Part shown: piece by piece, positions 5,304 through 31,845 of the stretch
How the letters are laid out: each line of letters opens with the position of its first letter
Numbering within the stretch: the stretch's first letter is position 1
Origin: a bacterium
GTDB taxonomy: Bacteria; Patescibacteriota; Andersenbacteria; UBA10190; CAIZMI01
DNA length: 38,823 nt
Assembly: GCA_030647555.1 (NCBI GenBank)
Contig: JAUSJG010000005.1
Coordinates: 1-38,823, forward strand
Direction: 5' to 3'
The notes under the pieces: model-generated
Database searches by the model: none
What the model was told of the DNA's origin: nothing
The model's input: only the letters and a program-made list of their open reading frames with translations
Program-made: the position numbers and the translations under genes

Positions 5304-7001
5304 ATGAAATTATTTTCCCGAAAAAAGAAAGAAGGGCCGGTGGCTGTCATAAGACCGAAAGAGTCTATTTATTATTTTCCAATCAAGCATGCTTTTGGTT
5401 TAGATTTTTCTGATGCGTCCTTAAAGGCGGTTGAGATTATTCATAAAAACGGAAAGTTTTTAATTCAATCACATAGTTTTATTGATTTGCCTCCAAATGT
5501 TATCTATCGAGGTGAAGTTAAAAATCCGGAGTTGCTAAAAAAAACGATTCTGGAACTTCTGGCAAAAGCACGTCCTCAGCCGATTTCCTCAAAATTTGTG
5601 ATTTCTTCGTTTCCCGAAGCGTCGGTGTATTTAAGGCCATTTGAATTTCCAGCGGCACTTTCAGAAAAACAAGTAATCTCTACTCTCCCTTTTGAGGCTG
5701 AGAGTGAAATGCCAATTAAAATTTCGGAGATGTATACCGATATTCGATTTCATCGATCACGAGAAAATGGTCACCATGTTGTCTTTACTGCCGCGCCACA
5801 GGTGATGGTTGATAATTACATCAGCATACTCACGGCAATTAATTTAAAGCCGATTGTGTTTGAATTGGATTCGCTTGCTTTAATTAGGAGCTTAATGCAA
5901 CCAAGTGATGATCCTATTATTATTCTCGATGTCGGTGCTTGGTCTTCAACCATAACAATTATCGAGCGGGAGACGGTACATGGTTACGTGAGTGTGCCCA
6001 TTGGTGGTTCCCATATTACCCAGATAATTGCGGAAAATTTCAAAATTCCATTTGCTGAGGCAGAAAAACAAAAAATAGTGAATGGTGTTTTTGCTTCAAT
6101 GGGAGAAAATAAGAATATTATGGAAAATAAATTACGGCTTTTTATTTCTGAAATTGCTAAGGCAGCAAAGTTTCATGAACAACACACCGGTCGTCCAGTC
6201 AAGCAATTAATCGTTTCCGGTGGGACGGCATTGGCCGATGATTTTATTGTTTACTTGCGGAATAATACCGGCTATGTGATTACACCGGGTGATCCTTTGG
6301 TAAATAAAAACTTGTCATATTCTGATGCGTATAGTGTCGCCGATAAGGAGGATTTTGCCGGACGTAAAGAATCATTTGCCAGCACCGTGGGATTGGCTAT
6401 TCGTGGTTCAAAAAATAAGATTGTCAGTTCAGGGTTAAACCTTTTGCCACAGAACATGCGTATAAAATATGAATATTGGTCATTCCAATTATTTTTCTCG
6501 ATCTGCGCTTTATTCATTGCATTAATTATTTTCTTAATTACTGTTACGGCTTCCTATTGGTTTTCGGGCATTGAACACCGCAATTCATTAATTAATTTCG
6601 AGAAGAAAATATTTTCAAGTACCTTTCCAGCCGCCGAGTTTGATCGATTTAAAGACGAGATAAATTTGGCGAATAAGGAAATAGCTCTGCTGAAAGGCTT
6701 TGATAACTTTAGAGCGGATATTATCATTATCGTTGACGATTTAATACGCACCGTTCCAGTGGGAATAAAAATTGACGACTTAAGAGTGGCTAGTCCGACA
6801 AAAGTGGGTGATCCGGCTGTTGTTCAAATAAGTGGGGTAGCGGCTACTCGTTCTGATATTCTCAATTTTGAAAAAATATTGAGGTCGCGTTCCGATATCA
6901 TTAATATTGATGCACCGTTAACAAATATCGATCGCGCGACGAATTCTGCCTTCACTGTTACGTTAAAAGTCAAGGTGGTTCACGATGAATATTCCCAGTA
7001 A
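5304..7001 (+). CDS. pilM: PilM-PilN fusion protein (pilus alignment subcomplex)
   Basis: Residues 1-~365 are a PilM-like actin fold: LDFSDASLKAVEI phosphate loop, ILDVGAWSSTITIIE, VSGGTALADDF. A membrane helix follows at ~395-420 (LFFSICALFIALIIFL), then a coiled-coil and ferredoxin-like periplasmic region (DIIIIVDDLIRTVPVGIKIDDL, VVQISGVAATRSDILNFEKIL), matching PilN. In most bacteria PilM (cytoplasmic) and PilN (membrane) are separate and bind each other through the PilN N-terminus; here they are one chain. The ATG at 5304 is chosen, 18 nt after the pilC stop. The stop TAA (6999-7001) lies inside the left end of a repeat element (6994-7133). Confidence 0.88.
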   Translation: MKLFSRKKKEGPVAVIRPKESIYYFPIKHAFGLDFSDASLKAVEIIHKNGKFLIQSHSFIDLPPNVIYRGEVKNPELLKKTILELLAKARPQPISSKFVISSFPEASVYLRPFEFPAALSEKQVISTLPFEAESEMPIKISEMYTDIRFHRSRENGHHVVFTAAPQVMVDNYISILTAINLKPIVFELDSLALIRSLMQPSDDPIIILDVGAWSSTITIIERETVHGYVSVPIGGSHITQIIAENFKIPFAEAEKQKIVNGVFASMGENKNIMENKLRLFISEIAKAAKFHEQHTGRPVKQLIVSGGTALADDFIVYLRNNTGYVITPGDPLVNKNLSYSDAYSVADKEDFAGRKESFASTVGLAIRGSKNKIVSSGLNLLPQNMRIKYEYWSFQLFFSICALFIALIIFLITVTASYWFSGIEHRNSLINFEKKIFSSTFPAAEFDRFKDEINLANKEIALLKGFDNFRADIIIIVDDLIRTVPVGIKIDDLRVASPTKVGDPAVVQISGVAATRSDILNFEKILRSRSDIINIDAPLTNIDRATNSAFTVTLKVKVVHDEYSQ

Positions 7002-7133
7002 TACAACTTCCAATTTTTTATCTATATGAATTACTTAATTAGAAAAAATATGATTATTCAGAAAAGTTTAATCTTAATGCTTGCCAGTTTTGAACAAACA
7101 AAGTTTGTTCAAATTGGAAGTTGATATACTGGG
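6994..7133 (+). repeat. Family-1 intercistronic element, copy 1
   Basis: Left end CCCAGTAATACAAC (6994-7007) and right end GTTGATATACTGGG (7120-7133) pair except for a 3x3 internal loop. The next segment pairs perfectly: TTCCAATTT (7008-7016) with AAATTGGAA (7111-7119). A small hairpin GAACAAAC/GTTTGTTC (7092-7110) abuts the right arm. The pilM stop codon is in the left end. Confidence 0.9.
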
Positions 7134-7137
7134 TACA

Positions 7138-7275
7138 CCCAGTAATACAACCCGCCATGTTTAAAAACACTACAAAAAAATTAATTCAAACAAGAGAAGA
7201 AATAGGCAGATTATTTTTAATTACGACTTTTGACAAACGACTGAGACAGTTTGGCTGGCGGGTTGATATACTGGG
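7138..7275 (+). repeat. Family-1 intercistronic element, copy 2 (tandem with copy 1)
   Basis: The ends are identical to copy 1 (7138-7151 and 7262-7275), but the variable arm is CCGCCA (7152-7157) paired with TGGCGG (7256-7261). A weaker CAAAC/GTTTG hairpin lies before the right arm. It begins 5 nt after copy 1 and ends 14 nt before the pilO ATG. Confidence 0.88.
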
Positions 7276-7289
7276 TACACAACAAAACC

Positions 7290-7859
7290 ATGATAAGTAA
7301 AACGAAACTTATTTTATCTAACAGTGTCTTGCGGGTAGGGCTTGCGATTTCAATTTTGGGAATTTTAATAACTTCCGGGGTATTGATTTTTGGGCATATA
7401 ATGATAAATGGGATTATTGGCGTAAAGAATGAAATACTGGATTTGTCAGAAACATCGACAGGCAAACGTTATCGTAGATTAACGGAGGATTATAATTCTA
7501 CAAAGTCGGAGCGAGCATTACTTTTTGAGGTGCGACCCGGTAGACAAGATATTGCCTATTTTGTGCAGGCACTTGATGGATTGGCTGCGAGAACGCAGGT
7601 TACACAAACAGTCGAGGTTGTCACTCAGCGCGATGTGGCCAGTGATGTAAAGTACGCAACACCGAGTATTCGCTATAAATTAAACGTCGCTGGCGGTATT
7701 GATTCAGTAATTAGTTTCATGAAAGAAGTAAATAAACTTCCATATTTGTTAAGAGTGGTGTCCGTTCAAATGACCGCGTCACAGGATAAGGTATTATCGG
7801 ATGTGACGCTTGGGACGATTATTATTGATATTGCATCTCAAGGGGACTATCTTAAATAA
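7290..7859 (+). CDS. pilO: PilO-like pilus alignment protein
   Basis: 189 aa with one N-terminal membrane helix (~13-38, VGLAISILGILITSGVLIFG), a short coiled coil (RYRRLTEDYNSTKSERALL) and a C-terminal ferredoxin-like periplasmic domain with the PilO-type pattern FVQALDGLAARTQVTQ ... ISFMKEVNKLPYLLRVVSVQM. It follows the PilM-PilN fusion, the usual gene order. The ATG at 7290 is used; upstream open codons (TTG at 7251) fall in repeat copy 2 and are rejected. The stop TAA (7857-7859) lies inside the left arm of the next element (7845-8056). Confidence 0.82.
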   Translation: MISKTKLILSNSVLRVGLAISILGILITSGVLIFGHIMINGIIGVKNEILDLSETSTGKRYRRLTEDYNSTKSERALLFEVRPGRQDIAYFVQALDGLAARTQVTQTVEVVTQRDVASDVKYATPSIRYKLNVAGGIDSVISFMKEVNKLPYLLRVVSVQMTASQDKVLSDVTLGTIIIDIASQGDYLK

Positions 7860-8056
7860 ACTATCCATCTTATTATGTCCACTACATCTCTGACTACCCT
7901 CCGCTCCGATGGAGCTACAGGGTGGCAGGCTACAACCACTTCTCAATCAAAAATCTTTCAACGTATTTATAGTACGCTTCAAGATTTTATTCAATCAAAG
8001 CGACCGTATTCTTTAGCGTACTTAAATAGAATATGGGTAGTTTATTTAAGATAGTC
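7845..8056 (+). repeat. Family-2 intercistronic element, copy 1 (with 36-nt insert)
   Basis: 24-bp terminal arms (7845-7868 and 8033-8056) pair with one G-U. The inner core shares long blocks with 8366-8544 and, reversed, with 16266-16444: CACTTCTCAATC, CTTTCAACGTA, AGTACGC, TCAATCAAAG. Relative to the other copies it carries an extra ~36 nt (CCCTCCGCTCCGATGGAGCT...) bounded by CTAC. It holds the pilO stop codon and ends 8 nt before the next start. Confidence 0.9.
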
Positions 8057-8064
8057 TCCCAAGA

Positions 8065-8361
8065 ATGAAAATTGATTTTAAAGAAATTAAGAAGAAATCG
8101 ACAATATCAAACTTTTTTATTATGGCTATTGGGGCGCTTATCTGTTTGGTTGTGGCCGTTGTTTTGGTTGGTGGTTTTTATTTTCTACTAAGTTATGAGA
8201 CAGAACGTCTTGATGGTACTTCCGGAGTTGATGCAAAAATGCCGTCGTTGGATAAAGGGGGGCTGAATTATTTTATTTCTCGACAAAAGCAGCGTTCACT
8301 TCTGAATGTGCCAGTTGCTCCTCTACCAACAGCATCGCCAGTGACGAATAAGAAAATATAG
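8065..8361 (+). CDS. Small single-pass membrane protein in the pilus operon
   Basis: 98 aa with a basic N-terminus (MKIDFKEIKKKS), one strong membrane helix (~16-45, FFIMAIGALICLVVAVVLVGGFYFLL) and a short Pro/Ser/Lys-rich outer tail (VPVAPLPTASP). It occupies the place where pilP often lies, but there is no lipobox and no PilP domain, so I do not name it. It is flanked on both sides by family-2 elements (7845-8056 and 8366-8544). It could be a pilus accessory or docking protein, which is inference from position only. Confidence 0.75.
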   Translation: MKIDFKEIKKKSTISNFFIMAIGALICLVVAVVLVGGFYFLLSYETERLDGTSGVDAKMPSLDKGGLNYFISRQKQRSLLNVPVAPLPTASPVTNKKI

Positions 8362-8365
8362 TATA

Positions 8366-8544
8366 AGGGCTTGGTAATAAATAAACACCCCATCTTATGT
8401 CCACTACATCTCCGACTACAACCACTTCTCAATCAAAAATCTTTCAACGTACTGAAAGTACGCTTCAAGATTTTGTTCAATCAAAGCGGTCGTATTCAGA
8501 GCGTATTGAACAGAATATGGAGTGTTTATTTATTACCAAGCCCT
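8366..8544 (+). repeat. Family-2 intercistronic element, copy 2
   Basis: Perfect 23-bp terminal arms (8366-8388 with 8522-8544), then CCAT/ATGG. The inner double stem is AAAATCTT/AAGATTTT plus CGTACT/AGTACG. The 179-bp length equals that of the copy at 16266-16444. It starts 4 nt after the upstream stop and ends 5 nt before the next ATG (8550). Confidence 0.92.
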
Positions 8545-8549
8545 AAGAC

Positions 8550-9902
8550 ATGTACAAGCTGGTCATGTGTAAAGCGCGAAAAGGGAGAGACAAAAAGGCA
8601 GGTTTTTCTTTATTGGAAACATTGATCGGCGTCACTGTTTTTGTCGTCATTGCCGTTGGTGTTTACCAAACATACAGTGCCGTTTACGTATTGATTGGAA
8701 CAACGAAGCAAAAAATCGCGGGAATTGCCTTGGCTAACGAGCAATTAGAAATAATTCGTAATCTGTCTTTTGCGGATGTGGGTATCGTCAATGGTGTTCC
8801 ATCTGGAAAAATTCCGCGCGTTCAAACACTGACTCGTTCCGGGGTAAGTTATTCCGTGGAAGCAACAATTAGAAATATAGATGACGCGTTTGATGGAACG
8901 ATCGGGGGTACCCCTAACGATCTTAGTCCCGCCGATTACAAGTTGGTGCAATTGGATATTTCTTGCGGTACTTGTAAACGGTTTGAGTCTTTTTCTATCG
9001 CATCCTATGTCGCGCCAAGGTCCATGGAACTTACTTCAAATAATGGCGCGATTTTTGTGAAAGTATTTGACGCGAGTGGTTTGGCAATTGCGGGGGCCAA
9101 TGTGCATATTGTGAATTCGCTTGCCAGTCCAGTGATTGATATCAATGAAACGACTAATAACGCTGGAGAATTTGCGCTGATAGATGTTCCTCCTGGGGTT
9201 GAGGCGTATGAAATAGCTGTTTCTAAAGAGGGTTATTCTTCTGAGCAAACATACCCAACGACCCTTCTCAACCCACATCCAACCAAAACAAATGCAACCG
9301 TAATTTCTAAACAAGCCACCCAGGTTAGTTTTTCTGTTGATCGGGTAAGTGCTCTTACAATTGCTACAGTGGATGAAAGCTGTATCGGCCTTTCGGGGAC
9401 CGACTTTACGCTGACTAGCACTAAATTAATTGGTACCGAACCGGATACACCAAAATATTCCGAAGTAATTACTACTGGTAGTAACGGGGAGGTGGCTTTG
9501 CTCGAGATGGAGTGGGGTAATTACACGCTTGAACCGGCTGTGGGGGTATTAGGGTATATTAGGTATTTTGCCGATCTGCCAATTAATTTATTGCCAGGTT
9601 CAGAACAAAAAGAAGTGGTTGTGATTAGGCCCGATGGGGCGGATCCGACATATAGTATTTTAGTTGACGTTAAAGATGTTGCTACGGGGCTAATTATTCC
9701 AAATGCTAGTGTTGTTCTGACAAAGGATTCTTTGCCCATTATGGCTTCGTCAAATTGCGCACCAACCGATCGAACCTTGTACCTCGGCTTGGAACCGGCA
9801 ATATATCATATCGTTGTTTCTGCTGATGGCTATTTACCATTTGTGGGTGATGTGGGGGTTAGTAATTCGTGGCAAGGGGTAAACATCACCTTAGCCAAAT
9901 GA
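8550..9902 (+). CDS. Prepilin-like protein with type IV N-methylation signal and carboxypeptidase-regulatory-like domains
   Basis: The N-terminus has a basic leader then GFSLLETLIGVTVFVVIAVGVY, a class III/type IV prepilin cleavage and methylation motif (cleavage after Gly, Glu at +5). The pilin-like part extends to ~150 with a C-x-x-C (DISCGTC). Residues ~160-450 contain about three beta-sandwich repeats of the carboxypeptidase D regulatory/Ig-like type (VKVFDASGLAIAGANVHI, GEFALIDVPPG, VDVKDVATGLIIPNASV, LGLEPAIYHIVVSADGY). At 450 aa it is far longer than a pilin, so it is probably a minor pilin or adhesive tip. The stop overlaps the next start by ATGA. The ATG at 8550 or 8568 are both possible starts. 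Confidence 0.85.
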   Translation: MYKLVMCKARKGRDKKAGFSLLETLIGVTVFVVIAVGVYQTYSAVYVLIGTTKQKIAGIALANEQLEIIRNLSFADVGIVNGVPSGKIPRVQTLTRSGVSYSVEATIRNIDDAFDGTIGGTPNDLSPADYKLVQLDISCGTCKRFESFSIASYVAPRSMELTSNNGAIFVKVFDASGLAIAGANVHIVNSLASPVIDINETTNNAGEFALIDVPPGVEAYEIAVSKEGYSSEQTYPTTLLNPHPTKTNATVISKQATQVSFSVDRVSALTIATVDESCIGLSGTDFTLTSTKLIGTEPDTPKYSEVITTGSNGEVALLEMEWGNYTLEPAVGVLGYIRYFADLPINLLPGSEQKEVVVIRPDGADPTYSILVDVKDVATGLIIPNASVVLTKDSLPIMASSNCAPTDRTLYLGLEPAIYHIVVSADGYLPFVGDVGVSNSWQGVNITLAK

Positions 9903-10519
9903 AAAAAGATATTACTGCTTTTAAAGACACTGGCTTCACGTTATTTGAAATAATGGTTACGATTGGGGTTATTTTAATAATTCTCATCCCGCTCACGAGA
10001 CTGCAGGTCAATATTTTAACTTATGGTCGCTTTTTCTATAATACCAATATCATTCAAGATGAAGCTCGGCGAATGATGCAGAAGTTTTCCGCGGAAGTGC
10101 GATCGATGACTCAATCAGGAACAGGAGCGTATTCGATTGAAAGTGCTATGAATAATAGTCTGGTTTTCTTTCGTGATATAAATCAAGATGGTCTTGTTGA
10201 ACGGATTCGGTACTATTTGGACGGCGTGGACCTTAAAAAAGGCGTGATTATTCCCACAGGCAATCCACAAACATATCTCACGGCTAACGAAAAAATATCG
10301 GTTGTTGTGCACGGAATATATAATGATGTTGGAACACCAATATTCCAATATTACAGTCGCAGTTACGATGGACAAACATCGGCACTTTCACAGCCGTTAG
10401 ATATTACAGCAATAAGGTTGATAAAAATAACCCTTCTTATTGGCACGGGAAATTCAAATCAGGATCGCATCACCTTAACAACGCAGGTGACGCTAAGAAA
10501 TATTAAGGATAATTTATAG
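9899..10519 (+). CDS. Prepilin-like protein (PilW/GspJ type)
   Basis: 206 aa. The ATG at 9899 overlaps the upstream TGA (ATGA), implying translational coupling. GFTLFEIMVTIGVILIILIPL near residue 12 is a prepilin signal with Glu at +5. The body has the long alpha helix (DEARRMMQKFSAEVRSM) and a beta part (LVFFRDINQDGLVERIRYYLDG) characteristic of minor pseudopilins of the PilW/GspJ group. It is presumably cleaved by a prepilin peptidase not encoded here and assembled in the pilus tip. Confidence 0.85.
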   Translation: MKKDITAFKDTGFTLFEIMVTIGVILIILIPLTRLQVNILTYGRFFYNTNIIQDEARRMMQKFSAEVRSMTQSGTGAYSIESAMNNSLVFFRDINQDGLVERIRYYLDGVDLKKGVIIPTGNPQTYLTANEKISVVVHGIYNDVGTPIFQYYSRSYDGQTSALSQPLDITAIRLIKITLLIGTGNSNQDRITLTTQVTLRNIKDNL

Positions 10520-10520
10520 T

Positions 10521-12038
10521 ATGTATAGATTTAAAAACAACAAGGGTTTTGCAAATAGCGGACAAATAATTATACCGGCGCTAGTTTTTGGTTGTATCGC
10601 GATTATTGTTATTACCGCGCTTCTTTCATGGGCGAGTTTAAATTTAAAATTAACGCGTCAGGCCGTGAGAAAAGAGCAAGCGCTACAAATCGCTGAAGCG
10701 GGGAATGATTACTATCGTTGGCATTTGGCGCATGCAAAAACTGATTATAAGGATGGTACTGGTGTTGATGGTCCTTATGTTCATGAGTTTAAGGATAAAA
10801 ATGGCAATGTCCTTGGGCAATTTAGTTTGGAAATTACAGCCCCGAGTTTGGGATCGACCGTAACGACAATAAAATCATCCGGTCAAGTTGTGGGCGATAC
10901 CGCAACCGAGCGACATATTCGAACAATGATGGCAATTCCTACAATAGCTAAATTTGCAGTTGCGTCGAATAGTGAGGTGCGTTTTGGTGCAGGTACCGAA
11001 ATATTTGGCCCGATTCATTCCAATGGCGGAATTCGTTTCGACGGATTGGCGCACAATATCGTTTCTAGTTCCAAACAATCTTATCTCGATCCGGATTCGC
11101 CTAACGATACTTCTTTTGGAGTGCATACACATATATCGCCGGCTGATCCGACTGTCCCTCCGTCACCACTGCCGCTCCCGGCGATACCAAGCAGGCCTGA
11201 TGTCTTCGTGACAGGAAGACAATTGTCTGTACCGGCTGTGGATTTTGCCGGATTAACTCCTGATTTACAGACAATGAAAACCGATGCAAATACAAGTGGA
11301 ATTTATTTAGCACCATCTGGAAAAAAAGGGTATCACTTGGTTTTGAAAAATAATAACACGGTTGATATTTATAAAGTAACGGCGTTAACCTCGCCCGCAT
11401 CGGGTTGTTCAAATCAAGAGGGAAGTGGTTCGTATTGGGGAACATGGACGATATCCACTGAGACGTTTGTAAGAAACTCAACAATTCCCAGTAACGGATT
11501 AATTTTTGTTGAGGATGATACCTGGGTTGATGGAAATGTTAATAATTCCCGTTTGACAATTGCTGCGGCACGTTTTCCAGATGTTGATTCAACGCGTGCC
11601 AGCATAATTATCAATAATAATCTAACTTATACAAATTATGGCGCGAGTGCTTCGTCTGGTTCTTCGGCGGCCCTTTGTAATGCGACTTATGATGTGATTG
11701 GATTGATAGCTCAGAGAAATATCAATATTGGTCTCGGAAGTGCCAATGATTTGCGTGTCGATGCCGCGCTGATTGCGCAATATGGTCGTGTCGGGCGTTA
11801 TTACTACAACCGTTCGTATTGTGGTTCAAATTCATTACGTAATTCAATTACACTCTACGGAATGATTGCCTCTAATACTCGTTATGGTTTTTCTTGGATT
11901 TGTAGCGGTACAACTCACTGCTCTGGGTATACTACAAGAAATATTAATTATGATTCGCACTTATTATATTGCGCTCCTCCGGATTTTCCCTTAACTTCGG
12001 ATCAATACGAAACCATCTCTTGGGAAGAGGTGCGGTGA
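10521..12038 (+). CDS. PilX-like pilus assembly/surface protein
   Basis: 505 aa, starting one base after the previous stop. The N-terminus has GQIIIPALVFGCIAIIVITALLSW followed by RQAVRKEQALQIAEAGNDYYRWHL, the 'A..iAEAG...' pattern of PilX N-terminal proteins; it lacks a Glu+5 prepilin motif, as PilX-like proteins in these genomes often do. The remainder is a long beta-rich ectodomain (NSEVRFGAGTEIFGPIHSNGG, LFAEDDTW-like VEDDTWVDGNV, INIGLGSANDLRVDAALIA) resembling a right-handed beta solenoid, with several Cys near the C-terminus. It is the last gene of the pil operon; no clear U-rich terminator follows, but structured repeats do. Confidence 0.78.
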   Translation: MYRFKNNKGFANSGQIIIPALVFGCIAIIVITALLSWASLNLKLTRQAVRKEQALQIAEAGNDYYRWHLAHAKTDYKDGTGVDGPYVHEFKDKNGNVLGQFSLEITAPSLGSTVTTIKSSGQVVGDTATERHIRTMMAIPTIAKFAVASNSEVRFGAGTEIFGPIHSNGGIRFDGLAHNIVSSSKQSYLDPDSPNDTSFGVHTHISPADPTVPPSPLPLPAIPSRPDVFVTGRQLSVPAVDFAGLTPDLQTMKTDANTSGIYLAPSGKKGYHLVLKNNNTVDIYKVTALTSPASGCSNQEGSGSYWGTWTISTETFVRNSTIPSNGLIFVEDDTWVDGNVNNSRLTIAAARFPDVDSTRASIIINNNLTYTNYGASASSGSSAALCNATYDVIGLIAQRNINIGLGSANDLRVDAALIAQYGRVGRYYYNRSYCGSNSLRNSITLYGMIASNTRYGFSWICSGTTHCSGYTTRNINYDSHLLYCAPPDFPLTSDQYETISWEEVR

Positions 12039-12042
12039 AATG

Positions 12043-12139
12043 CTCCGAGACTCGCGCCTCCTGGCGCCGAGATCTCGGAGTTCTTCGATTCTTGTGCAAA
12101 ACAAGTCAACAGGGCGTTGAGTTGTTTTGTGTACATTTG
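12043..12139. repeat. Tandem structured repeat, unit 1
   Basis: Stem I pairs CTCCGAGA (12043-12050) with TCTCGGAG (12073-12080). A conserved single strand GGAGTTC...CTTGTG follows, then stem II CAAAACAAGTCAAC (12097-12110) with its complement ending near 12128, then TGTACATTTGG (12129-12139). The same architecture recurs at 12168-12263 with different stem sequences. Confidence 0.8.
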
Positions 12140-12167
12140 GTAGTTTCGCAAAGCACACACAAGGTAG

Positions 12168-12263
12168 CTCCGGAAAATTAGCCTGTTGGCAAATTTTTCG
12201 GAGTTCATTGCTTCTTGTGTAAAATGGCTTCACGGGGTGTGAAGTCATTTTATGTACATTTGG
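12168..12263. repeat. Tandem structured repeat, unit 2
   Basis: Stem I pairs CTCCGGAAAATT (12168-12179) with 12192-12203. GGAGTTC (12200-12206) and CTTGTG (12214-12219) are kept. Stem II TAAAATGGCTTCAC (12220-12233) pairs with 12238-12251. TGTACATTTGG is kept at 12253-12263. A further GTTTTGCTTCGCAAAAC hairpin follows, before the tRNA. Confidence 0.8.
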
Positions 12264-12295
12264 ATTGTTTTGCTTCGCAAAACTTATGCAATGAG

Positions 12296-12368
12296 TGTCC
12301 CCGGCAGGATTCGAACCTGCGACCTTCAGCTTCGGAGGCTGACGCTCGATCCACTGCGCGACGGAGAC
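12296..12368 (-). tRNA. tRNA-Arg (anticodon CCG)
   Basis: The minus strand folds as a full cloverleaf: acceptor GTCTCCG/CGGGGAC, D arm GCGC/GAGC, anticodon stem TCAGC/GCTGA with loop CTCCGAA (anticodon CCG, reads CGG), T arm GCAGG-TTCGAAT-CCTGC, discriminator A. CCA is not encoded. Position 9 is C instead of the usual purine, and the D loop differs from the neighbouring copy (GATC versus GATA). Confidence 0.9.
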
Positions 12369-12390
12369 ATGTTTTTATTCTACTTCCTGG

Positions 12391-12562
12391 CTGTCCGGCA
12401 GGATTCGGCCTCGCCTCTCGAAGTGTTGATACACTTCTCGGGCTGGCCACCGCCTCATATTGCCTGTGGGCAATACTCCGGCGCTGAAAAACCATTAAAG
12501 GTTTTCCAGCCTGCGACCTTCAGCTTCGGAGGCTGACGCTCTATCCACTGCGCTACGGAGAC
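12391..12562 (-). pseudogene. Interrupted tRNA-Arg copy
   Basis: Minus bases 12562-12510 match tRNA-Arg(CCG) from the acceptor stem through the 5' half of the T stem, with canonical U8-A9. A 103-nt insert (12509-12407) replaces the TTC of the T loop. Then GAATCCTGCCGG resumes (12406-12395), but the 3' acceptor strand reads CGGACAG and no longer pairs fully. The insert has at least three hairpins (GAAAACC/GGTTTT, ATTGCC/GGCAAT, GAAGTGT/ACACTTC). It is probably a non-functional remnant. A third 3' fragment (TCGAATCCTGCCG) lies at 12590-12602 on the same strand. Confidence 0.75.
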
Positions 12563-12610
12563 CTAATTTAATTGTACTCTCTGTGCCGACGGCAGGATTC
12601 GACGACGTAT

Positions 12611-12919
12611 TTATATCCCCAGAAGGCCGAATTCGGCTCTTAGTTCTTCTGACATTTTTTCTACCGACCATGCTGGAGTAAATGTCAGTTCAGTTTTTAT
12701 TTCTTTAATACCCTCAATCAGGCGAAGTCGGTCGCGCATGTTTTTTTCGATGGTCGCCCCTTCAGGGCATGCGGGCGAGGTGAGAGAATAAACAATCGTG
12801 ACATCACCTATTTTATCTGTTAAAACTTCATAAATTAGACCCAGATCAACAATGTTATACCCGAGTTCCGGATCCTTTACGTCTTTTAGGGCTTCTCGTA
12901 TTTCCTTCTCGGCTATCAT
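12611..12919 (-). CDS. MIP18/DUF59-family iron-sulfur assembly protein
   Basis: 102 aa and single domain. The motifs DPELGYNIVDLGLIYEV and TSPACPEG are diagnostic of the MIP18 (DUF59, SufT/PaaD-like) family, whose members help maturation of Fe-S proteins; the Cys in TSPACP is the conserved reactive Cys. Length and single-domain form are typical for the stand-alone version. It could assist the Fe-S activase encoded at 20615-22330, but they are not in one operon and that is speculation. Its stop is followed directly by a tRNA 3' fragment. Confidence 0.9.
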   Translation of the reverse strand: MIAEKEIREALKDVKDPELGYNIVDLGLIYEVLTDKIGDVTIVYSLTSPACPEGATIEKNMRDRLRLIEGIKEIKTELTFTPAWSVEKMSEELRAEFGLLGI

Positions 12920-12978
12920 AGAAAATTACCATAATTCAAATTTGAAGGAATGGGAAGGGGTCGTTATAGCTCATAAAC

Positions 12979-13165
12979 AGTGTTACCGAAATCGTCTCGG
13001 ATAGTTCATAAATAGGGTTGCTATAATTTTGCTGTAATCAATTTAACTTAAGCTACCGTACCACCTACGAGGTGAAGCACGTTTGCTCCACCTCGTAGGT
13101 GGTACAAGGTGCCATGTTGACGTAACCCTTTCGTTTCTTTGTGATAAGGCGATTTCGGTAACACT
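12979..13165. repeat. Nested palindromic element (MITE-like), 187 bp
   Basis: Perfect 16-bp outer arms AGTGTTACCGAAATCG (12979-12994) and 13150-13165. An inner perfect 17-bp stem pairs 13058-13074 with 13089-13105 (GTACCACCTACGAGGTG). Intermediate AGGGTT/AACCCT pairs lie between. It fills most of the gap between the divergent DUF59 and PrsW genes. Confidence 0.85.
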
Positions 13166-13207
13166 TTCTAATGATCTGTTGCGGGGGTTTTATGCTAAAC
13201 TAAACCA

Positions 13208-14206
13208 ATGGACTTTAACAATGGCTCATTTGCCCTTTCTGACATGGTAGCAATCGCGATTATCGCCGGTTTATTAAGTTTGTTGCCGGTCGTGATAATG
13301 CTTTGGTTTTATTATGTTCGACAAAAACAACCAAGTGTTTCCGGAACATCAATGTTTCGTTTTTTCTCTATTGGCGTAATTGCTGTCATCATCTCCGTTC
13401 TTTTGGAAAAAGGAGTTTTTTTACTTTGGCAATTTATTTCACCGATAACCGCTGAAAAATTTTTTTCCGATAATGTTTCGATGGGTAATACGATTGAATT
13501 ATTTTTTGCTGCGGGAGTTACGTTTGGTATTGTTGCAATAATTGAGGAGGGTACGAAGTACCTACTTATGCGTCGTCTCATTTGGCGCACATACGACTTG
13601 GATCAAATAATCGATGGGGTACAACTTGGTATCGCTACCGGTCTAGGTTTTGCTTTTTTGGAAAATACATTTTATTTTTTGACACTTTTTAAGGGTTTTG
13701 AATTTGATACACTGGTCATTGTATTTTTTCTACGTTTTCTTATTTCTACGGTGGGGCACATGTCGTTTGGGGGCATCATGGGGTATCAGTTGGCAAAAGC
13801 GCGGTTTAATGTTACGGAAAAAAAATCTTTTAATGGAAAGGCAATTGTCTACCCATGGCTTATGCACGGGTTCTTTAATTTTCTGCTAGCCATCCAGCTC
13901 GCTTTCTATAATGTCATCTTGCTAATTATACCCTTGGCGATATTTTGGTATTGGTGGCACGACGACCGTCTTTTTCATGTTTATGTATTAAATGGGCATC
14001 CTTTGAAGTATCCGATAGCCAGTAAGAAGAAGGTAGTTTCAGTTGCCGGAAAAACTATCGTAGAGATTCTACCTTCCATGAGTTCATGTCCTAATTGTTA
14101 CGTAATAATTAATGAAGAGCAGAGTAAGTGCGACGCTTGTGGTATTCAATTTCATCGAAAAAAAATTATTCGAGAGATACCTTTTTTGCCTAATCAAGGT
14201 CTATAA
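13208..14206 (+). CDS. PrsW-family intramembrane protease-like protein with C-terminal zinc ribbon
   Basis: 332 aa with about eight membrane segments. The family motifs are present: EEGTKYL (~residue 117, EExxK), FAFLENTFYF (~150), the His of HMSFGGIMGY (~182) and HGFFNF (~220), the putative metal-binding residues of PrsW/CPBP-like proteases. After the last helix (LLIIPLAIFWYWW) a cytoplasmic tail carries CPNC...CDAC spaced 13 residues apart (~298-316), a zinc ribbon. PrsW cleaves anti-sigma factors in Bacillus; whether this one acts on such a target here is unknown. Confidence 0.85.
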   Translation: MDFNNGSFALSDMVAIAIIAGLLSLLPVVIMLWFYYVRQKQPSVSGTSMFRFFSIGVIAVIISVLLEKGVFLLWQFISPITAEKFFSDNVSMGNTIELFFAAGVTFGIVAIIEEGTKYLLMRRLIWRTYDLDQIIDGVQLGIATGLGFAFLENTFYFLTLFKGFEFDTLVIVFFLRFLISTVGHMSFGGIMGYQLAKARFNVTEKKSFNGKAIVYPWLMHGFFNFLLAIQLAFYNVILLIIPLAIFWYWWHDDRLFHVYVLNGHPLKYPIASKKKVVSVAGKTIVEILPSMSSCPNCYVIINEEQSKCDACGIQFHRKKIIREIPFLPNQGL

Positions 14207-14224
14207 TGTTTAAAATTAATTTTT

Positions 14225-14338
14225 ATGAATAAGATAATCACGTTCATTCTATTATTGTTTTTGGTAGTTTTAACTCTGGCAATAATTAGTCAATTTTACG
14301 CGCCACAAATGGCAACCAGCGTGTTTCAGGCTTTTTAA
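14225..14338 (+). CDS. Small single-pass membrane protein, 37 aa
   Basis: A short open frame in the gap between prsW-like and vanZ-like genes: MNKIITFILLLFLVVLTLAI then SQFYAPQMATSVFQAF. One clear hydrophobic helix follows a short basic start. There is no Shine-Dalgarno, like many genes here. Tight spacing on both sides (19 and 9 nt) and co-orientation support it, but it is short and without recognised homology. Confidence 0.45.
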   Translation: MNKIITFILLLFLVVLTLAIISQFYAPQMATSVFQAF

Positions 14339-14347
14339 TAAATTGGG

Positions 14348-14734
14348 ATGCATAGTAGTATGAAAAAAAATATCGATTGGATTGCACTTTTGGCTTGGTG
14401 TGGAGTTATTTTCTTTTTTTCCAGTGTGCCAAATCTTTCCAGTGGGTTAAAGGAAGATTTTTTACTAAGAAAAATTGCTCATGCATCAGAATATGCCGTG
14501 TTGGCGTTTTTGTTTTTTAATGTTTTGAGAAACCGATTTGGTGATAAACATTTTAATATTTTAATGACTGCGTTGGTTGCGTTAGCCTACGCGTTTACGG
14601 ACGAGGTACACCAAACTTTTGTTCGAGGACGGTCCGGCAATTTTTTTGATATTAGTATCGATTCGTTGGGTATCACTATTGGCTTATTGTTAATTATGTT
14701 CTTTGGTTATTGTAGCAAGCGGAAAAAACAATAA
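14348..14734 (+). CDS. VanZ-like membrane protein
   Basis: 128 aa with four membrane segments. The VanZ-like signature is visible: FFFSSVPNLSSG, LLRKIAHASEYAVLAFLFF, LAYAFTDEVHQTFVRGRSGNFFDISIDSLG. The conserved K-x-x-H-x-x-E-Y and D-E-x-H-Q residues are present. The function of this family is poorly defined (linked to glycopeptide resistance in one case). Start at 14348 or 14360 (MKKNIDW). It ends at a hairpin shared with the convergent rplT. Confidence 0.88.
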   Translation: MHSSMKKNIDWIALLAWCGVIFFFSSVPNLSSGLKEDFLLRKIAHASEYAVLAFLFFNVLRNRFGDKHFNILMTALVALAYAFTDEVHQTFVRGRSGNFFDISIDSLGITIGLLLIMFFGYCSKRKKQ

Positions 14735-14772
14735 CATATTAAAGCTCCTGCCGAAGCAAGAGTTTTAATATG
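14735..14772. terminator. Bidirectional hairpin terminator
   Basis: CATATTAAA...GCTC pairs with GAG...TTTTAATATG between the convergent vanZ-like and rplT genes. The U-tract is short on either strand. Confidence 0.6.
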
Positions 14773-14789
14773 TTTGGGAAATAAGATCT

Positions 14790-15149
14790 TTAACTGACTA
14801 ACGATTTCTTTGCTTCGTCAACAACCCGCTTAAATATTGCCGGTTTTTCTTGGGCGAGCAGAACTAACATTTTGCGGTTGATGGTGATATTCTGTTTCTT
14901 TAATAGGTTGATGAAGCTACTATATGAAACTTCATGTGGCTTGAGAGCGGCTGAAAGTTGTATGTTCCACAATCTGCGGAAATCGCCCTTCTTCTTGCGA
15001 CGATGCGCGTAGGCATACTGGCCGGCTTTGGTTAAGGCTTGTCTGGCTTCACGTAGGTGGGTTTTGCGACGATGAAAAAAACCTTTGGTTTGGCGTAGGA
15101 TATTACGGCGTCTTTTGGCGTGAATTGTACCTCGTTTTACTCGTGGCAT
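14790..15149 (-). CDS. rplT: 50S ribosomal protein L20
   Basis: 119 aa, full length. The classic start is MPRVKRGTIHAKRRRNILRQTKGF, with RRKTHLREARQAL and the C-terminal AALKPHEVSYSSFINLLKKQNITINRKMLVLLA. It binds 23S rRNA early in large-subunit assembly. It is the third gene of the infC-rpmI-rplT group, 21 nt after rpmI. Confidence 0.97.
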   Translation of the reverse strand: MPRVKRGTIHAKRRRNILRQTKGFFHRRKTHLREARQALTKAGQYAYAHRRKKKGDFRRLWNIQLSAALKPHEVSYSSFINLLKKQNITINRKMLVLLAQEKPAIFKRVVDEAKKSLVS

Positions 15150-15170
15150 GGGGGAATAATTTAATACTAG

Positions 15171-15386
15171 TTATTTTGGGTTAACCGGGGCGTTGAACGG
15201 CATTAGACGGGTAAGACGTTTACGGTCGGTGCTGTCGATTTCTTGGTCACGTCGACGTGCCATTAATGTCTTTTTAGAACGACCGACGTTGAAGTGGCCA
15301 TGCATTGTGCGACGACGCATAACTTTACCAGCTTTGCTAAAGCTAAAACGCTTGGCTGCCGCCTTTCGGGTCTTTTGTTTAACCAT
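15171..15386 (-). CDS. rpmI: 50S ribosomal protein L35
   Basis: 71 aa: MVKQKTRKAAAKRFSFSKAGKVMRRR with KTLMARRR and the usual C-terminus. The frame is open further upstream, but the conserved L35 N-terminus fixes the ATG at 15386-15384. This ATG lies one base after the right end (GTTGATATACTGGG) of a family-1 element, so ribosome entry must occur on or next to the element; no Shine-Dalgarno is visible. Confidence 0.96.
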   Translation of the reverse strand: MVKQKTRKAAAKRFSFSKAGKVMRRRTMHGHFNVGRSKKTLMARRRDQEIDSTDRKRLTRLMPFNAPVNPK

Positions 15387-15387
15387 G

Positions 15388-15524
15388 CCCAGTATATCAA
15401 CCGTCAACATAAGCGAAAACGCTTATATTGAGTGGATTTTAAGGATGAGGGCGTGTGACTTAGTCATGATGGTATTTTAAACGAATATGATTCGTGCCTA
15501 GTAATTGACGGTTGTATTACTGGG
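15388..15524 (-). repeat. Family-1 intercistronic element, copy 3 (infC-rpmI gap)
   Basis: Minus strand: left end 15524-15511, right end 15401-15388. The variable arm CGTCAA pairs with TTGACG. The hairpin ATAAGCG/CGCTTAT (15409-15426) sits next to the right arm. It ends one base before the rpmI ATG. Confidence 0.9.
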
Positions 15525-15560
15525 CATGATTGATAAGCTTACGGAATAATGTATTTTTCG

Positions 15561-16130
15561 TCAATTGCCTGATGTTTGGATCGTGTTTTCTGTCTTAGTT
15601 TGCTCTTTATTGCTCATGGGCGCAAGTGTGACGGAAAAACCATTCGGGTGAGGCGCGAGATTTTCTTCTTGCTTGTTGGGAACAGTAATTTTCCTTAAGA
15701 AAGTTTCAATAATGGTGCGAGCAAGGGGTTTGTGAGCCTTCTCACGGCCCCTAAGTACAATTTCGACTCTTACCTTGTCGCCGTCCTTAAGAAAATCTTC
15801 AGTATGTTTACGTTTTAGTTCTTGATCGTGGTCGCCGGTTTTGAAGCCGATGCGAATGCCCTTGATATCCGTTTTTTTCTTACCTTTTTTTTGTTCTCGT
15901 TCTTTCTTTGCTTGTTCGTACTGAAACTTTCCGAAATCCATGATTTTGCATACGGGGGGGCGAGTGGCGGGAGAAATTTCTACCAAATCGAGACCCACCA
16001 ACCGTGATTGGCGTAATGCTTCTTTTGTATCAAGGACACCGACTTGTTTGCCTTCGGCATCGATTAAACGAACAACATGGGCGCGAATGGCATTGTTAAC
16101 GCGTAAACGGTCTGAATATGATGGTGAAAT
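15561..16130 (-). CDS. infC: Translation initiation factor IF-3, probable AUU start
   Basis: The IF-3 N domain (DRLRVNNAIRAHVVRLIDAEGKQVGVL, LVGLDLVEISPATRPPVCKIMDFGKFQYEQ) and C domain (IRIGFKTGDHDQELKRKHTEDFL, GDKVRVEIVLRGREKAH, FSVTLAP) are complete. An in-frame stop lies at ~16149-16147 and no ATG, GTG or TTG falls before the conserved N-domain. The best start is ATT at 16130-16128 (ISPSYSDRLRVNN...), giving 189 aa. A rare AUU start is the known autoregulatory device of E. coli infC. No Shine-Dalgarno is evident. It heads infC-rpmI-rplT. Confidence 0.93.
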   Translation of the reverse strand: MSPSYSDRLRVNNAIRAHVVRLIDAEGKQVGVLDTKEALRQSRLVGLDLVEISPATRPPVCKIMDFGKFQYEQAKKEREQKKGKKKTDIKGIRIGFKTGDHDQELKRKHTEDFLKDGDKVRVEIVLRGREKAHKPLARTIIETFLRKITVPNKQEENLAPHPNGFSVTLAPMSNKEQTKTENTIQTSGN

Positions 16131-16265
16131 GGAGGTATTATTTAATAATGATTAAGCTTGATTATACTGGAGAGGGCATATATTTACAAGCGCAAAACCA
16201 CATTATTTGATATATAATTAACAAGTCCTTAGGTAATTTTAAGATTTTGGTGGCACCTATCTTTT

Positions 16266-16444
16266 GGCCTCGTCCGTAAATAAATTCCCCAAGATTATAC
16301 TCAATGCGCTTTAAATGTGAGTACTTTGATTGAGTAAAACCTTACGGCGTACTAGCAGTACGGTGAAAGGTTTTACGATTGAGAAGTGCTTGCAGTTAAA
16401 GATGCAGTGAGTATAAGATGGGGAATGTATTTACGGACGAGGCC
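16266..16444 (-). repeat. Family-2 intercistronic element, copy 3
   Basis: 25-bp arms (16266-16290 with 16420-16444, one mismatch). Read on the minus strand, the core aligns with 8366-8544: CCCCATCTTAT, CACTTCTCAATC, CGTACTG..AGTACG, TCAATCAAAG. The inner stem is AAAACCTT/AAGGTTTT where the other copies have AAAATCTT/AAGATTTT, a compensatory change. It contains the stop codon of the upstream glycosyltransferase gene (16433-16431). Confidence 0.92.
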
Positions 16445-17600
16445 TTAGACTTGCGTAAATGTTCTCATACTGATTAATTGTATTGTTGATATCGTGCTTT
16501 TCGATAATCTCCAGACTACTTTGGGACATTTTTTGTTGTAATGCACTATCGCTCAAGATGTTTTGCATATACTGCGAAAGTCTGTTGGTGTCGTTAAGTT
16601 CAAAGAGGTATCCATTGATCTCATGGTGGCACAACTCCGGTAGCGCCATGGCGTTCACGGCAATTACCGGTAGACCGGATGCCATTGCTTCCATGGTGAC
16701 GATACTTTGCAATTCCGCGATTCCGGAGATGATAAAGCAATCTGCCGTTCGGTAGAGTCCTGGCAAATCAGCTTCAGGAACAAAACCAGTGAAAGTGACT
16801 TTTTGGGCGAGTTCTAACTTATTAACCAACTCTTTTAGGTTGTTTGCCTCCGCACCTTTGCCTGCAACGATAAAATGCCCGCTAACTTTTTTTACTGCGT
16901 CGGCAAAAGCCTCAAGGAGGTAGTCTATTTTTTTTTCTTTATCGAGGCGTCCCACGTAAAGTAGTGTAGGTACTCTTGGTAAATGATATTTTTCTCGTAG
17001 TGGATCACCACTAGTAGTTGGTTTAAATTTTTCGCGGTCTATTCCGCAGGATACCGTGATGACGGGCTTATTTAATCCAACATTGTCGAGAAGTTTCGCG
17101 GCCGTTTTGGTTGGTGTTGTAACGATATCCAGAAGTCCGTAGACACTGCAAAAATAGCGCCAGCCCATATTTGTCACTACTTTCTCGCCTGTTTCGGGCA
17201 AGTGAAGGTAGTGGGTTAAGTTTTCGGGCATGAAGTGGTTTGTGCCGACAGCTGGAATGCCGAAGCGTTTGGCAATTTTTACCAAACTGGCGCCGATGTA
17301 AAAATGGTCTTGAACGTGAATGATATCGGGCTTAAACTCTTTGACAACCTTGGTTATGTCATAGCGACCCACAAAGGAGGGGGTCCAGCGGAAATCTTTG
17401 TAGACTAAAATTGGTACGGAACCTAGACCAAACACATTTATTCCGTTTATCAAAGCATTTTTAGTCAATAATTGACGCCCTGGAGCAATAACAAGGATCT
17501 CATGGCCGCGTTTTTGGAGATAGTGGGCCAATCTTTGGGAAAAGATTGAAGCGCCGTTGACGTTGGGGAAGTAGTTGTCGGTTCCGATGATGATTTTCAT
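16431..17600 (-). CDS. GT4-family glycosyltransferase
   Basis: 389 aa in two Rossmann-like halves (GT-B). N-half: MKIIIGTDNYFPNVNGASIFSQRLAHYL, IIHVQDHFYIGASLV. C-half: LLYVGRLDKEKKIDYLLEAF, then the EX7E motif in AELQSIVTMEAMASGLPVIA that contacts the sugar nucleotide. It resembles diacylglycerol or phosphatidylinositol glycosyltransferases of the group; the substrate is unknown. The ATG at 17600-17598 is one base after a family-1 element. The last residues (LRPRP) and the stop are encoded by the arm of a family-2 element, so the original 3' end was probably altered by it. Confidence 0.9.
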   Translation of the reverse strand: MKIIIGTDNYFPNVNGASIFSQRLAHYLQKRGHEILVIAPGRQLLTKNALINGINVFGLGSVPILVYKDFRWTPSFVGRYDITKVVKEFKPDIIHVQDHFYIGASLVKIAKRFGIPAVGTNHFMPENLTHYLHLPETGEKVVTNMGWRYFCSVYGLLDIVTTPTKTAAKLLDNVGLNKPVITVSCGIDREKFKPTTSGDPLREKYHLPRVPTLLYVGRLDKEKKIDYLLEAFADAVKKVSGHFIVAGKGAEANNLKELVNKLELAQKVTFTGFVPEADLPGLYRTADCFIISGIAELQSIVTMEAMASGLPVIAVNAMALPELCHHEINGYLFELNDTNRLSQYMQNILSDSALQQKMSQSSLEIIEKHDINNTINQYENIYASLRPRP

Positions 17601-17601
17601 G

Positions 17602-17742
17602 CCCAGTATATCAACCGCCAATGTAAGCGTTTTCGAAACGCTTACAAATTGTGGATTTTAAAATTAAAGATTTCATATGTATAATTAGAGTAATGTAGAG
17701 GATAGATAAAGGATTTTTCAAATTGGCGGTTGTATTACTGGG
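17602..17742 (-). repeat. Family-1 intercistronic element, copy 4
   Basis: Minus strand: left end 17742-17729 directly after the DedA TAA (17745-17743), right end 17615-17602 one base before the glycosyltransferase ATG. The variable arm CGCCAAT pairs with ATTGGCG. The 10-bp hairpin GTAAGCGTTT/AAACGCTTAC (17623-17645) abuts the right arm. The element fills the whole intergenic gap. Confidence 0.93.
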
Positions 17743-31031: not shown

Positions 31032-31428
31032 GGGGATGCCAGGCATCGACAGTGGGTCAAAATATTCTTAGCAAGTCGAGCGCGCAGGATGCGCTCGTAA
31101 ATATCATTCTGCATTCAAGACATGCAAACGTCTTTACGCAGGTGAAGAACGCGATTGCGAAAGCGATCACGCCTTCATTTGCACCAGCTTTCGCTTAATA
31201 ACGGAAGCCATCGGATTTTCTCTGCCCTGGGGAATTGTTCCGGTGTCAATTAAGGGCTAGGAATTAGTTTGCTTTAGCAGAAACTAATTCGACTCTTGCA
31301 CTGCCAAACGGTTATTGGGATTCTTCGTTTTCCGGTTATCTCAAAATCGTCAAAATAAAGGAAGACTAAACTTGTAGAATAAGTCTATCGCGATCTATTG
31401 GACGCGAGTTCAATTCTCGCCATCTCCA
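31032..31428 (+). ncRNA. ssrA: Transfer-messenger RNA (tmRNA)
   Basis: The tRNA-like ends are clear: 5' GGGGATG (31032-31038) pairs with CATCTCC (31421-31427), then discriminator A (31428). The T arm GCGAG-TTCAATT-CTCGC precedes it. The next bases are CCC, so CCA is not encoded. The tag reading frame starts at GCA (31124) and ends at GCT before TAATAA (31196-31201): ANVFTQVKNAIAK...ITPSFAPAFA, 24 residues. tmRNA with SmpB rescues stalled ribosomes and tags the peptide for proteolysis. The tag ends in AFA rather than the common LAA. Confidence 0.95.
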
Positions 31429-31430
31429 CC

Positions 31431-31527
31431 CTTCGAGTCGGCCGCCCTGGCGGCCTCCCTCAGGGTAAACTCTTCCTTATCTCGAAGGACTCTGAGCGAG
31501 TTTCGCCAGAGCGAAACGAGTCGAAGA
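31431..31527 (+). repeat. Structured module downstream of tmRNA (copy X)
   Basis: Long-range stem CTTCGAG (31431-31437) with CTCGAAG (31481-31487) encloses hairpin GGCCGCC/GGCGGCC (31440-31455). A second hairpin GTTTCGC/GCGAAAC follows, bounded by GACTC/GAGTC. The module, including the tmRNA 3' tail, is duplicated at 31897-32020. Confidence 0.75.
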
Positions 31528-31575: not shown

Positions 31576-31845
31576 ATGCCGGATTGGTATTTGTATATCG
31601 CCAGAGCAAGAACGGGACATTATTATGTTGGAATAACGACTGAACCGAAACGTCGAATAGAAGATCATAATAACGGCAGAGGTTCGAGAATGGCTATTAA
31701 TCAAGGGCCGTTTGTTTTGGTGTATACGTCAGATAAAATATTAGACCAATCAACTGCTAGAAAAAGAGAAATTCAGGTAAAAGGATGGAGTCGAAAGAAA
31801 AAAGAAAAATTGATAAGTGGCGAATATAAATTGTCAGTCACATAA
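31576..31845 (+). CDS. GIY-YIG domain protein (UvrC/YhbQ-like nuclease fold)
   Basis: 89 aa. GIY-YIG core: WYLYIARARTGHYYVGITTEPKRRIEDHNNG, then a basic C-part (TARKREIQVKGWSRKKKEKLI). The YLYI...YVGIT pair and the Arg/His residues of the active site are in place; the terminal Glu is in KREIQVK. Small stand-alone proteins of this fold include YhbQ-like proteins and homing-type endonucleases. A TATAAT (31564-31569) six bases before the ATG would give a leaderless transcript. It lies between two copies of the tmRNA tail module. A 9-bp hairpin CGATTTTTC/GAAAAATCG follows the stop. Confidence 0.88.
   Translation: MPDWYLYIARARTGHYYVGITTEPKRRIEDHNNGRGSRMAINQGPFVLVYTSDKILDQSTARKREIQVKGWSRKKKEKLISGEYKLSVT

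Follow-up and report, generated by a model that had tools for sequence, protein, structure and literature searches.

Bacterial miniature inverted-repeat transposable elements (MITEs), such as Correia/NEMIS, ERIC and RUP, are short, non-coding and intergenic, carry inverted repeats, duplicate their target and reach a high copy number (PMC10969869). The T4 seg genes are small, free-standing GIY-YIG homing endonuclease genes located between host genes; their homing proceeds by break repair and is directed to a single cognate site, their cut sites lie hundreds of bp or more away, and they have no end repeats (PMC2988022). In the rRNA genes of Candidate Phyla Radiation (CPR) bacteria, GIY-YIG insertions that match no intron class have been judged to lie outside homing, and short insertions devoid of an open reading frame (ORF) also occur (PMC11270868). 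The repeats described here are about 140 bp long, and four copies are found in a 38,823-nucleotide stretch of an Andersenbacteria genome (contig JAUSJG010000005.1; hereafter the window). They resemble MITEs in all the features listed above; however, their ends are shared with a GIY-YIG-coding element and not with a transposase-coding insertion sequence (IS), they are placed at start codons in one orientation, they carry a short ORF that would feed the host start codon, and a 3x3 mismatch distinguishes their left and right ends. They differ from the seg genes by conserved ends, 4-bp duplications, many unrelated sites and nuclease-less copies. The CPR rRNA-gene insertions include the same GIY-YIG and short ORF-less kinds and may be related, although they are located in rRNA genes and are likened here by description. 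We consider it likely that the repeats derive, as non-autonomous and MITE-like copies, from a mobile element of the tiny, uncultured Patescibacteria, the 309-315 bp full-length form of which encodes only a stand-alone GIY-YIG nuclease, with a mobility that would be driven by this nuclease and an insertion that would be followed by ribosome reinitiation on the host gene.

A direct check of the window confirmed the four copies with the coordinates, strands and ends of the original prediction, as well as the 3x3 ATA/ATA mismatch, the matched inner arms and, in three copies, the side hairpin (Table 1). The genome (1.32 Mb in 31 contigs, a draft, 97% complete) contains 31 complete copies of 135-144 bp and two remnants consisting of the left end only; the 14-nt left end occurs exactly 28 times, as against 0 for a reversed-pattern control. 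Many more copies were found in related genomes, the absence of which the original prediction had named among the results that would refute it. The ends pair over 7 + 10 bp, interrupted by the mismatch, which is invariant in 153 of the 153 copies compared. In the 31 copies of the genome 97.2% of the stem cells are paired, compared with a mean of 84.1% after column shuffling and 22-41% in slid-partner controls; the proposed stems show 129 two-sided changes, and the fold of copy 4 has z = -7.3 as DNA and -8.2 as RNA, DNA folding giving the same structure. The ends had been described as constant, but their outermost pairs covary as well (CCCAG/CTGGG, CCCCG/CGGGG, CCCGG/CCGGG), with more than one matched type in several genomes.

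Identical 4-bp flanks surround 91 of the 123 copies from outside the studied genome, flanks of 5 bp and 3 bp being seen in 4 and 10 copies, respectively. The 4-bp targets comprise about 20 different sequences (including TATG, CATG, ATGA, TTGA, CCTA, TCAA, CAAA, ACAA, AGAG, TAAG and TGTG), and flanking repeats of so many sequences constitute true target-site duplications. No copy was found in the sister genome G001, the only other genome of the genus, where the starts of rpsE, rplF, rplE, rpsQ and rpmC are uninterrupted; all five sites are occupied in the ribosomal operon of the studied genome. At four of these five sites the flank alignments between the two genomes overlap by 4 bp. An example of an empty site and its occupied counterpart is ...AATTGCTATGGCATTCC... 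in G001 and ...ACCATG[138 bp]TATGGCATTCC... in the studied genome. The repeats are thus mobile DNA elements that have inserted with a 4-bp target-site duplication. They have the terminal inverted repeats, the target-site duplication and the mobility of MITEs and, like them, no transposase gene; what sets them apart is that their ends are shared with GIY-YIG-coding elements and with no known transposase.

These duplications also bear on single-stranded DNA hairpin elements of the REPIN/RAYT or IS200/IS605 type. Such elements form small hairpins of DNA, the arms of which match, and a Y1 enzyme amplifies them in trans without target-site duplication. An IS200-like Y1 transposase gene (PF01797) is present in the window (33171-33602, minus strand), the repeats fold as DNA hairpins and their pairing is probably kept at the DNA level. 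However, Y1 elements duplicate no target, whereas the duplications seen here are varied and confirmed by empty sites; moreover, the repeats have GIY-YIG-coding relatives, and none of the full-length forms contains a Y1 gene. An origin of this type is very unlikely, and the Y1 transposase of the window was rejected as mobiliser on account of the target duplications; no link between this gene and the repeats was found. Integron attC sites have imperfect inverted repeats, constant ends, an internal unpaired loop and a variable interior, and the repeats are alike in these respects; here, in contrast, there is no cassette array and the 4-bp duplications lie at dispersed host start codons, and an attC-like reading was rejected on account of these duplications.

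The pattern of pairing indicates at which level it is maintained. Pairing kept for RNA would be expected to leave more G-U than A-C pairs. Among the 153 copies we counted 15 G-T cells, 15 A-C cells and 2562 Watson-Crick cells. In the absence of a G-U excess over A-C, the stems are probably kept paired in DNA, or else a folded form of the DNA is mutated or copied, the counts being small. Selection on structure, which had been proposed for the repeats, is thereby not borne out as selection on RNA structure: the two kinds of break are equally frequent and G-U pairs nearly absent, which points to pairing at the DNA level. This bears on a second alternative, that of a non-mobile host regulatory RNA leader controlling the adjacent start codons of a translation-gene regulon. 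The copies always lie in the sense orientation, before genes for ribosomal proteins, tRNA synthetases, gyrA, ftsH and the like, and both the structure and the short ORF are conserved, in agreement with such a leader. The lack of G-U excess speaks against it, as do the same genes without the element in the sister species, the target-site duplications, the tandem copies and host genes that vary between genomes. An origin as RNA leader is contradicted by these data, and we regard this alternative as highly improbable; later co-option as a regulator in the studied genome is possible.

Several other structural features were observed. Within the short copies L128, L137, L139, L150, L165, L219 and L223, another TTACTGGG-like motif is complementary to the left end of the same copy, making two alternative pairings possible for this end. 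In Doudnabacteria copies (e.g. L122, L135, L160, L230) a conserved GCTTTTGC/GCAAAAGC pairing would cross the ATGGTTTTTG/CAAAAACCAT stem in a pseudoknot-like manner. The sequence of the right end would also allow an extended -10 promoter (TTGATATACT); this reading was set aside, since the 3-4 nt left to the ATG are too short for a leaderless start.

The repeats are placed at start codons. The downstream start codon lies 0-2 nt past the right end in 24 of the genome's 31 copies (the copy C28_8274 precedes a short rpmJ-like ORF below the length cut-off used), and every copy with a downstream gene lies in the orientation of that gene. The host genes, named from their translations, include ftsH, gyrA, dnaB, rpmI, rpsE, rplF, rplE, rpsQ, rpmC, glyS, lepA, tsf, rpsK, tig and argS. 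Start codons represent only 90 of 327 YATG sites located in intergenic regions or at starts in sampled regions of the genome, and a preference for YATG combined with avoidance of ORFs therefore does not explain the bias. Among the 123 copies from elsewhere about 88 are found at start codons, the remainder being mostly intergenic. The usual target is TATG or CATG at a gene start, and through its duplication the gene retains a complete start codon after the element, while another ATG precedes the insertion. This arrangement is reminiscent of an element removable at the mRNA level, either a small intron or a translational bypass from the first ATG to the second: the identical ATG on both sides would resemble take-off and landing codons, with a stable hairpin bridging the ends. 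Yet 13 of the 31 copies, including at least 6 located at a gene start, have no ATG directly before the left end, some copies are found away from coding contexts, and the Rfam scan of the window gave no match to group I or group II intron covariance models (it detected only tmRNA and a tRNA, with no match above gathering threshold at the four copies). We judge this the least probable of the alternatives considered.

Full-length relatives of the repeats were identified in the form of 10 elements in 8 genomes, 309-315 bp long, with the same ends and a single encoded protein, a UPF0213/Slx1-like GIY-YIG nuclease of about 100 amino acids. A search for the same ends wider apart yielded the first, a 314-bp GIY-YIG-coding element, and a GIY-YIG search of the class the second, precisely at the start codon of a pilN-like gene in G010. 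Long forms are present in 7 of 31 genomes picked for carrying the short copies (targeted search) and in 1 of 279 genomes of the phylum sample without them (G240), where the arm TTCCAAT is that of the main arm class of the studied genome; G013 and G030 each have two, at unrelated genes. In 8 of the 10 long forms the nuclease ORF begins at the duplicated host ATG, the left end coding for M-P-S-N-T-T (ATG CCC AGT AAT ACA AC(T)) before the nuclease proper, and it stops at a TGA within the right end (GT-TGA-TATACTGGG), about 10 nt ahead of the host ATG. In both G013 elements the ORF starts from an internal ATG and the TGA overlaps the host ATGA. About 30 nt of the coding tail at the right end of the long forms recur in several short copies, as expected if the latter are deletion derivatives. 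Together with the target-site duplications and the empty sites, these relatives uphold the earlier suggestion of a MITE-like element moved in trans; the original prediction included neither the duplications nor the precise position at start codons, nor the short ORF or the long forms.

The nuclease matches Pfam PF01541 (E about 1e-16), and the candidate catalytic residues Y14/Y25/G27/R35/E71 are invariant in 8 proteins. Synonymous sites are near saturation and pN is 0.02-0.25, revealing strong purifying selection; the enzyme of the full-length form is therefore probably active. Its nearest solved structures are UPF0213 and Slx1 rather than I-TevI, with a sequence match to 1zg2 (E 1.2e-7) and, in a Foldseek comparison of the predicted structure (a moderate model, pLDDT 67), a best hit to 1zg2 (9e-5) followed by Slx1 (E 0.02, prob 1.00). 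Slx1 is a branched-DNA nuclease. One apparent long form, L281, proved to be a 296-bp non-GIY arrangement. The stand-alone GIY-YIG genes of the genome itself (window 31585-31806 and C14) belong to a different subfamily, are shared with G001 and lie outside these ends. The former gene (plus strand) is located directly behind the tmRNA gene (31032-31431). In L255 (G002:C18, 1484-1799) a GIY-YIG gene lies within different inverted ends (CCCCGTTAGAAACCC...GGGTTTCTAACGGGG), which also supply the stop just before a TATG start; this is possibly a second family on the same plan.

In the 140-bp copies a short ORF has been maintained. ORFs of at least 15 codons that start with ATG and end at the right junction are found in 92 of 154 short copies, as against 24.6 +/- 4.6 when the interior is shuffled, and in 27 of the 31 copies of the studied genome (shuffled, 4.2 +/- 1.9). 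Of the 110 copies located at start codons 78 have such an ORF, compared with 9 of the 39 elsewhere (p = 3.5e-7). When no start is required, the TGA frame is long in open codons at start-codon copies (median 35 versus 16, p = 1e-5), whereas the other two frames are not. No Shine-Dalgarno-like motif was found before the right ATG in the 110 copies, yet the genome has one at only 14 of 143 starts. A short ORF running into the TGA mainly where a host gene follows suggests translational reinitiation, and on the simplest reading the translated ORF would deliver ribosomes about 10 nt before the host start codon and open the stem there. The intercistronic translation device once proposed for the repeats survives in this modified form, as a short ORF that ends at a conserved TGA immediately ahead of the start of the host gene.

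Table 1. Copies of the repeat in the window and their associated features.
Feature	Positions	Strand	Remarks
Copy 1, 140 bp	6994..7133	+	between pilM-like gene and copy 2
Short ORF of copy 1, MNYLIRKNMIIQKSLILMLASFEQTKFVQIGS*	7026..7124	+	terminates at right-end TGA
TACA, left 4-bp duplication of copy 2	7134..7137		
Copy 2, 138 bp	7138..7275	+	directly behind copy 1; arms CCGCCA/TGGCGG
TACA, right 4-bp duplication of copy 2	7276..7279		
CATG, right 4-bp duplication of copy 3	15384..15387	-	contains rpmI start codon
Copy 3, 137 bp	15388..15524	-	between infC (IF-3) and rpmI (L35); rpmI ATG 15386-15384
CATG, left 4-bp duplication of copy 3	15525..15528	-	
Copy 4, 141 bp	17602..17742	-	fills gap from VTT/DedA-like gene stop (TAA) to glycosyltransferase start (ATG 17600-17598)
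Short ORF of copy 4, MKSLILKSTICKRFENAYIGG*	17611..17676	-	terminates at right-end TGA

In the window, the ORF upstream of copy 1 terminates at a stop codon contributed by the left end of this copy (TAA at 6999-7001). The short ORF was not found in copy 2, and the ATG of the gene that follows this copy is at 7290. The tandem pair at 6994-7275 is resembled by L199 (4-421), which has three tandem copies with TATG between each.

A pattern scan of GTDB representatives returned at least 119 stretches. Among the matches listed, nearly all are from Patescibacteria (Doudna-, Kerfeld-, Azam-, Lipton-, Terry-, Uhr-, Komeili-, Portnoy-, Magasanik- and Yanofskybacteria), and the few in other bacteria have no matched arms. 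Exact-pattern copies are present in 8 of 287 genomes of an even phylum sample, a patchy distribution as expected of a mobile element. The IMG/VR viral contigs gave only 5 matches, and the two that could be checked lack matched arms.

These data can be assembled into the following scheme. The two ends of the element would pair into a hairpin or cruciform with the conserved ATA/ATA mismatch, and the Slx1/UPF0213-like nuclease may cut this folded form to start mobility, moving both the full-length and the short copies, the latter in trans. Ribosomes finishing the nuclease or the short ORF would re-initiate on the host gene, so that insertion would be tolerated even in essential genes. The 140-bp copies would have lost the nuclease and kept a short ORF for reinitiation.

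Several points weigh against this scheme. We know of no GIY-YIG nuclease that serves by itself as a transposase. Duplications of 4 bp are rather a trait of DDE transposases, and such an enzyme could have been missed. The studied genome (a 97% complete draft) yielded no full-length form, and the mobiliser was therefore not seen there; the form in G240 sits in a genome without exact-pattern short copies. About a quarter of the copies lie away from start codons, and both lineage and the target ATG itself are partial confounders of the ORF contrast, which is weak within the Doudnabacteria subfamily. The repeats might accordingly be ordinary MITEs moved by an unseen DDE transposase, the GIY-YIG gene being a passenger caught in one element lineage. 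Terminal inverted repeats with a constant 4-bp duplication are the usual DDE marks, and this reading would also agree with a genome in which no mobiliser is seen and with short copies that greatly outnumber the full-length forms. However, all the coding elements found with these ends encode the same GIY-YIG protein, under strong purifying selection, and nothing else, and the GIY-YIG form is the only case of paired ends 260-6000 bp apart in the loci first examined for such pairs (mostly of 8 kb or less; targeted searches covering interiors of 262-322 bp). We hold the passenger explanation to be unlikely, though less so than any of the other alternatives, and favor mobilization by the GIY-YIG nuclease.

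Some further observations concern neighboring repeats and other GIY-YIG insertions. The window contains a second pair of repeats (7873-8011 and 8395-8497), which are 93-96% identical and include an inner hairpin (CTTTCAACGTA...AGTACGCTTCAAG). A related sequence lies within a stand-alone GIY-YIG gene, which it interrupts (L286, G000 C30 at ~55,350), and has long inverted repeats on its flanks there (GGCCTCGTCCGTAAATAAATTCCCC). A different GIY-YIG insertion in the same genome is L285 (G000:C27 at ~7,600), in which the GIY-YIG gene lies inside a tRNA(CTT anticodon) gene, the 5' part of which is duplicated on both sides, the downstream copy being whole. A 98-nt repeat (83%) at 12310-12407 and 12504-12601 includes most of the tRNA at 12296-12368 (minus strand), and its second copy looks like a fragment of a tRNA gene or a tRNA pseudogene. 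Finally, a 1601-amino-acid repetitive surface-type protein is encoded at 33684-38489 (minus strand), with three 300-nt internal repeats (83-85%).

To our knowledge, the DNA transposons described so far move by means of enzymes of the DDE, HUH/Y1, tyrosine, serine or Cas1 type, or of a reverse transcriptase. Penelope-like retroelements use a GIY-YIG endonuclease for their mobility but depend on reverse transcriptase, for which there is no room in 309 bp. In the open-access literature we found no GIY-YIG element described as having both inverted repeats and target duplications. The full-length relatives, coding only for a small nuclease, point to a kind of jumping gene without earlier description, a rating that is provisional. 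Whether it forms a new class of transposable elements, with an Slx1-like GIY-YIG nuclease of about 100 amino acids as the sole mobility enzyme that it encodes, cutting a folded DNA form, inserting at start codons with a 4-bp duplication, reading its own gene from the host start and handing the ribosomes back, appears to us evenly balanced. If this is true, a 309-bp element that has conserved ends and target duplications and codes only for a GIY-YIG nuclease would add a class of transposons and rank with the smallest self-coding mobile elements described. Landing on the starts of essential genes, borrowing the start and returning the ribosomes would represent a new way to invade a streamlined genome, and the element may account for the stand-alone GIY-YIG genes and the unexplained short insertions reported in CPR bacteria.

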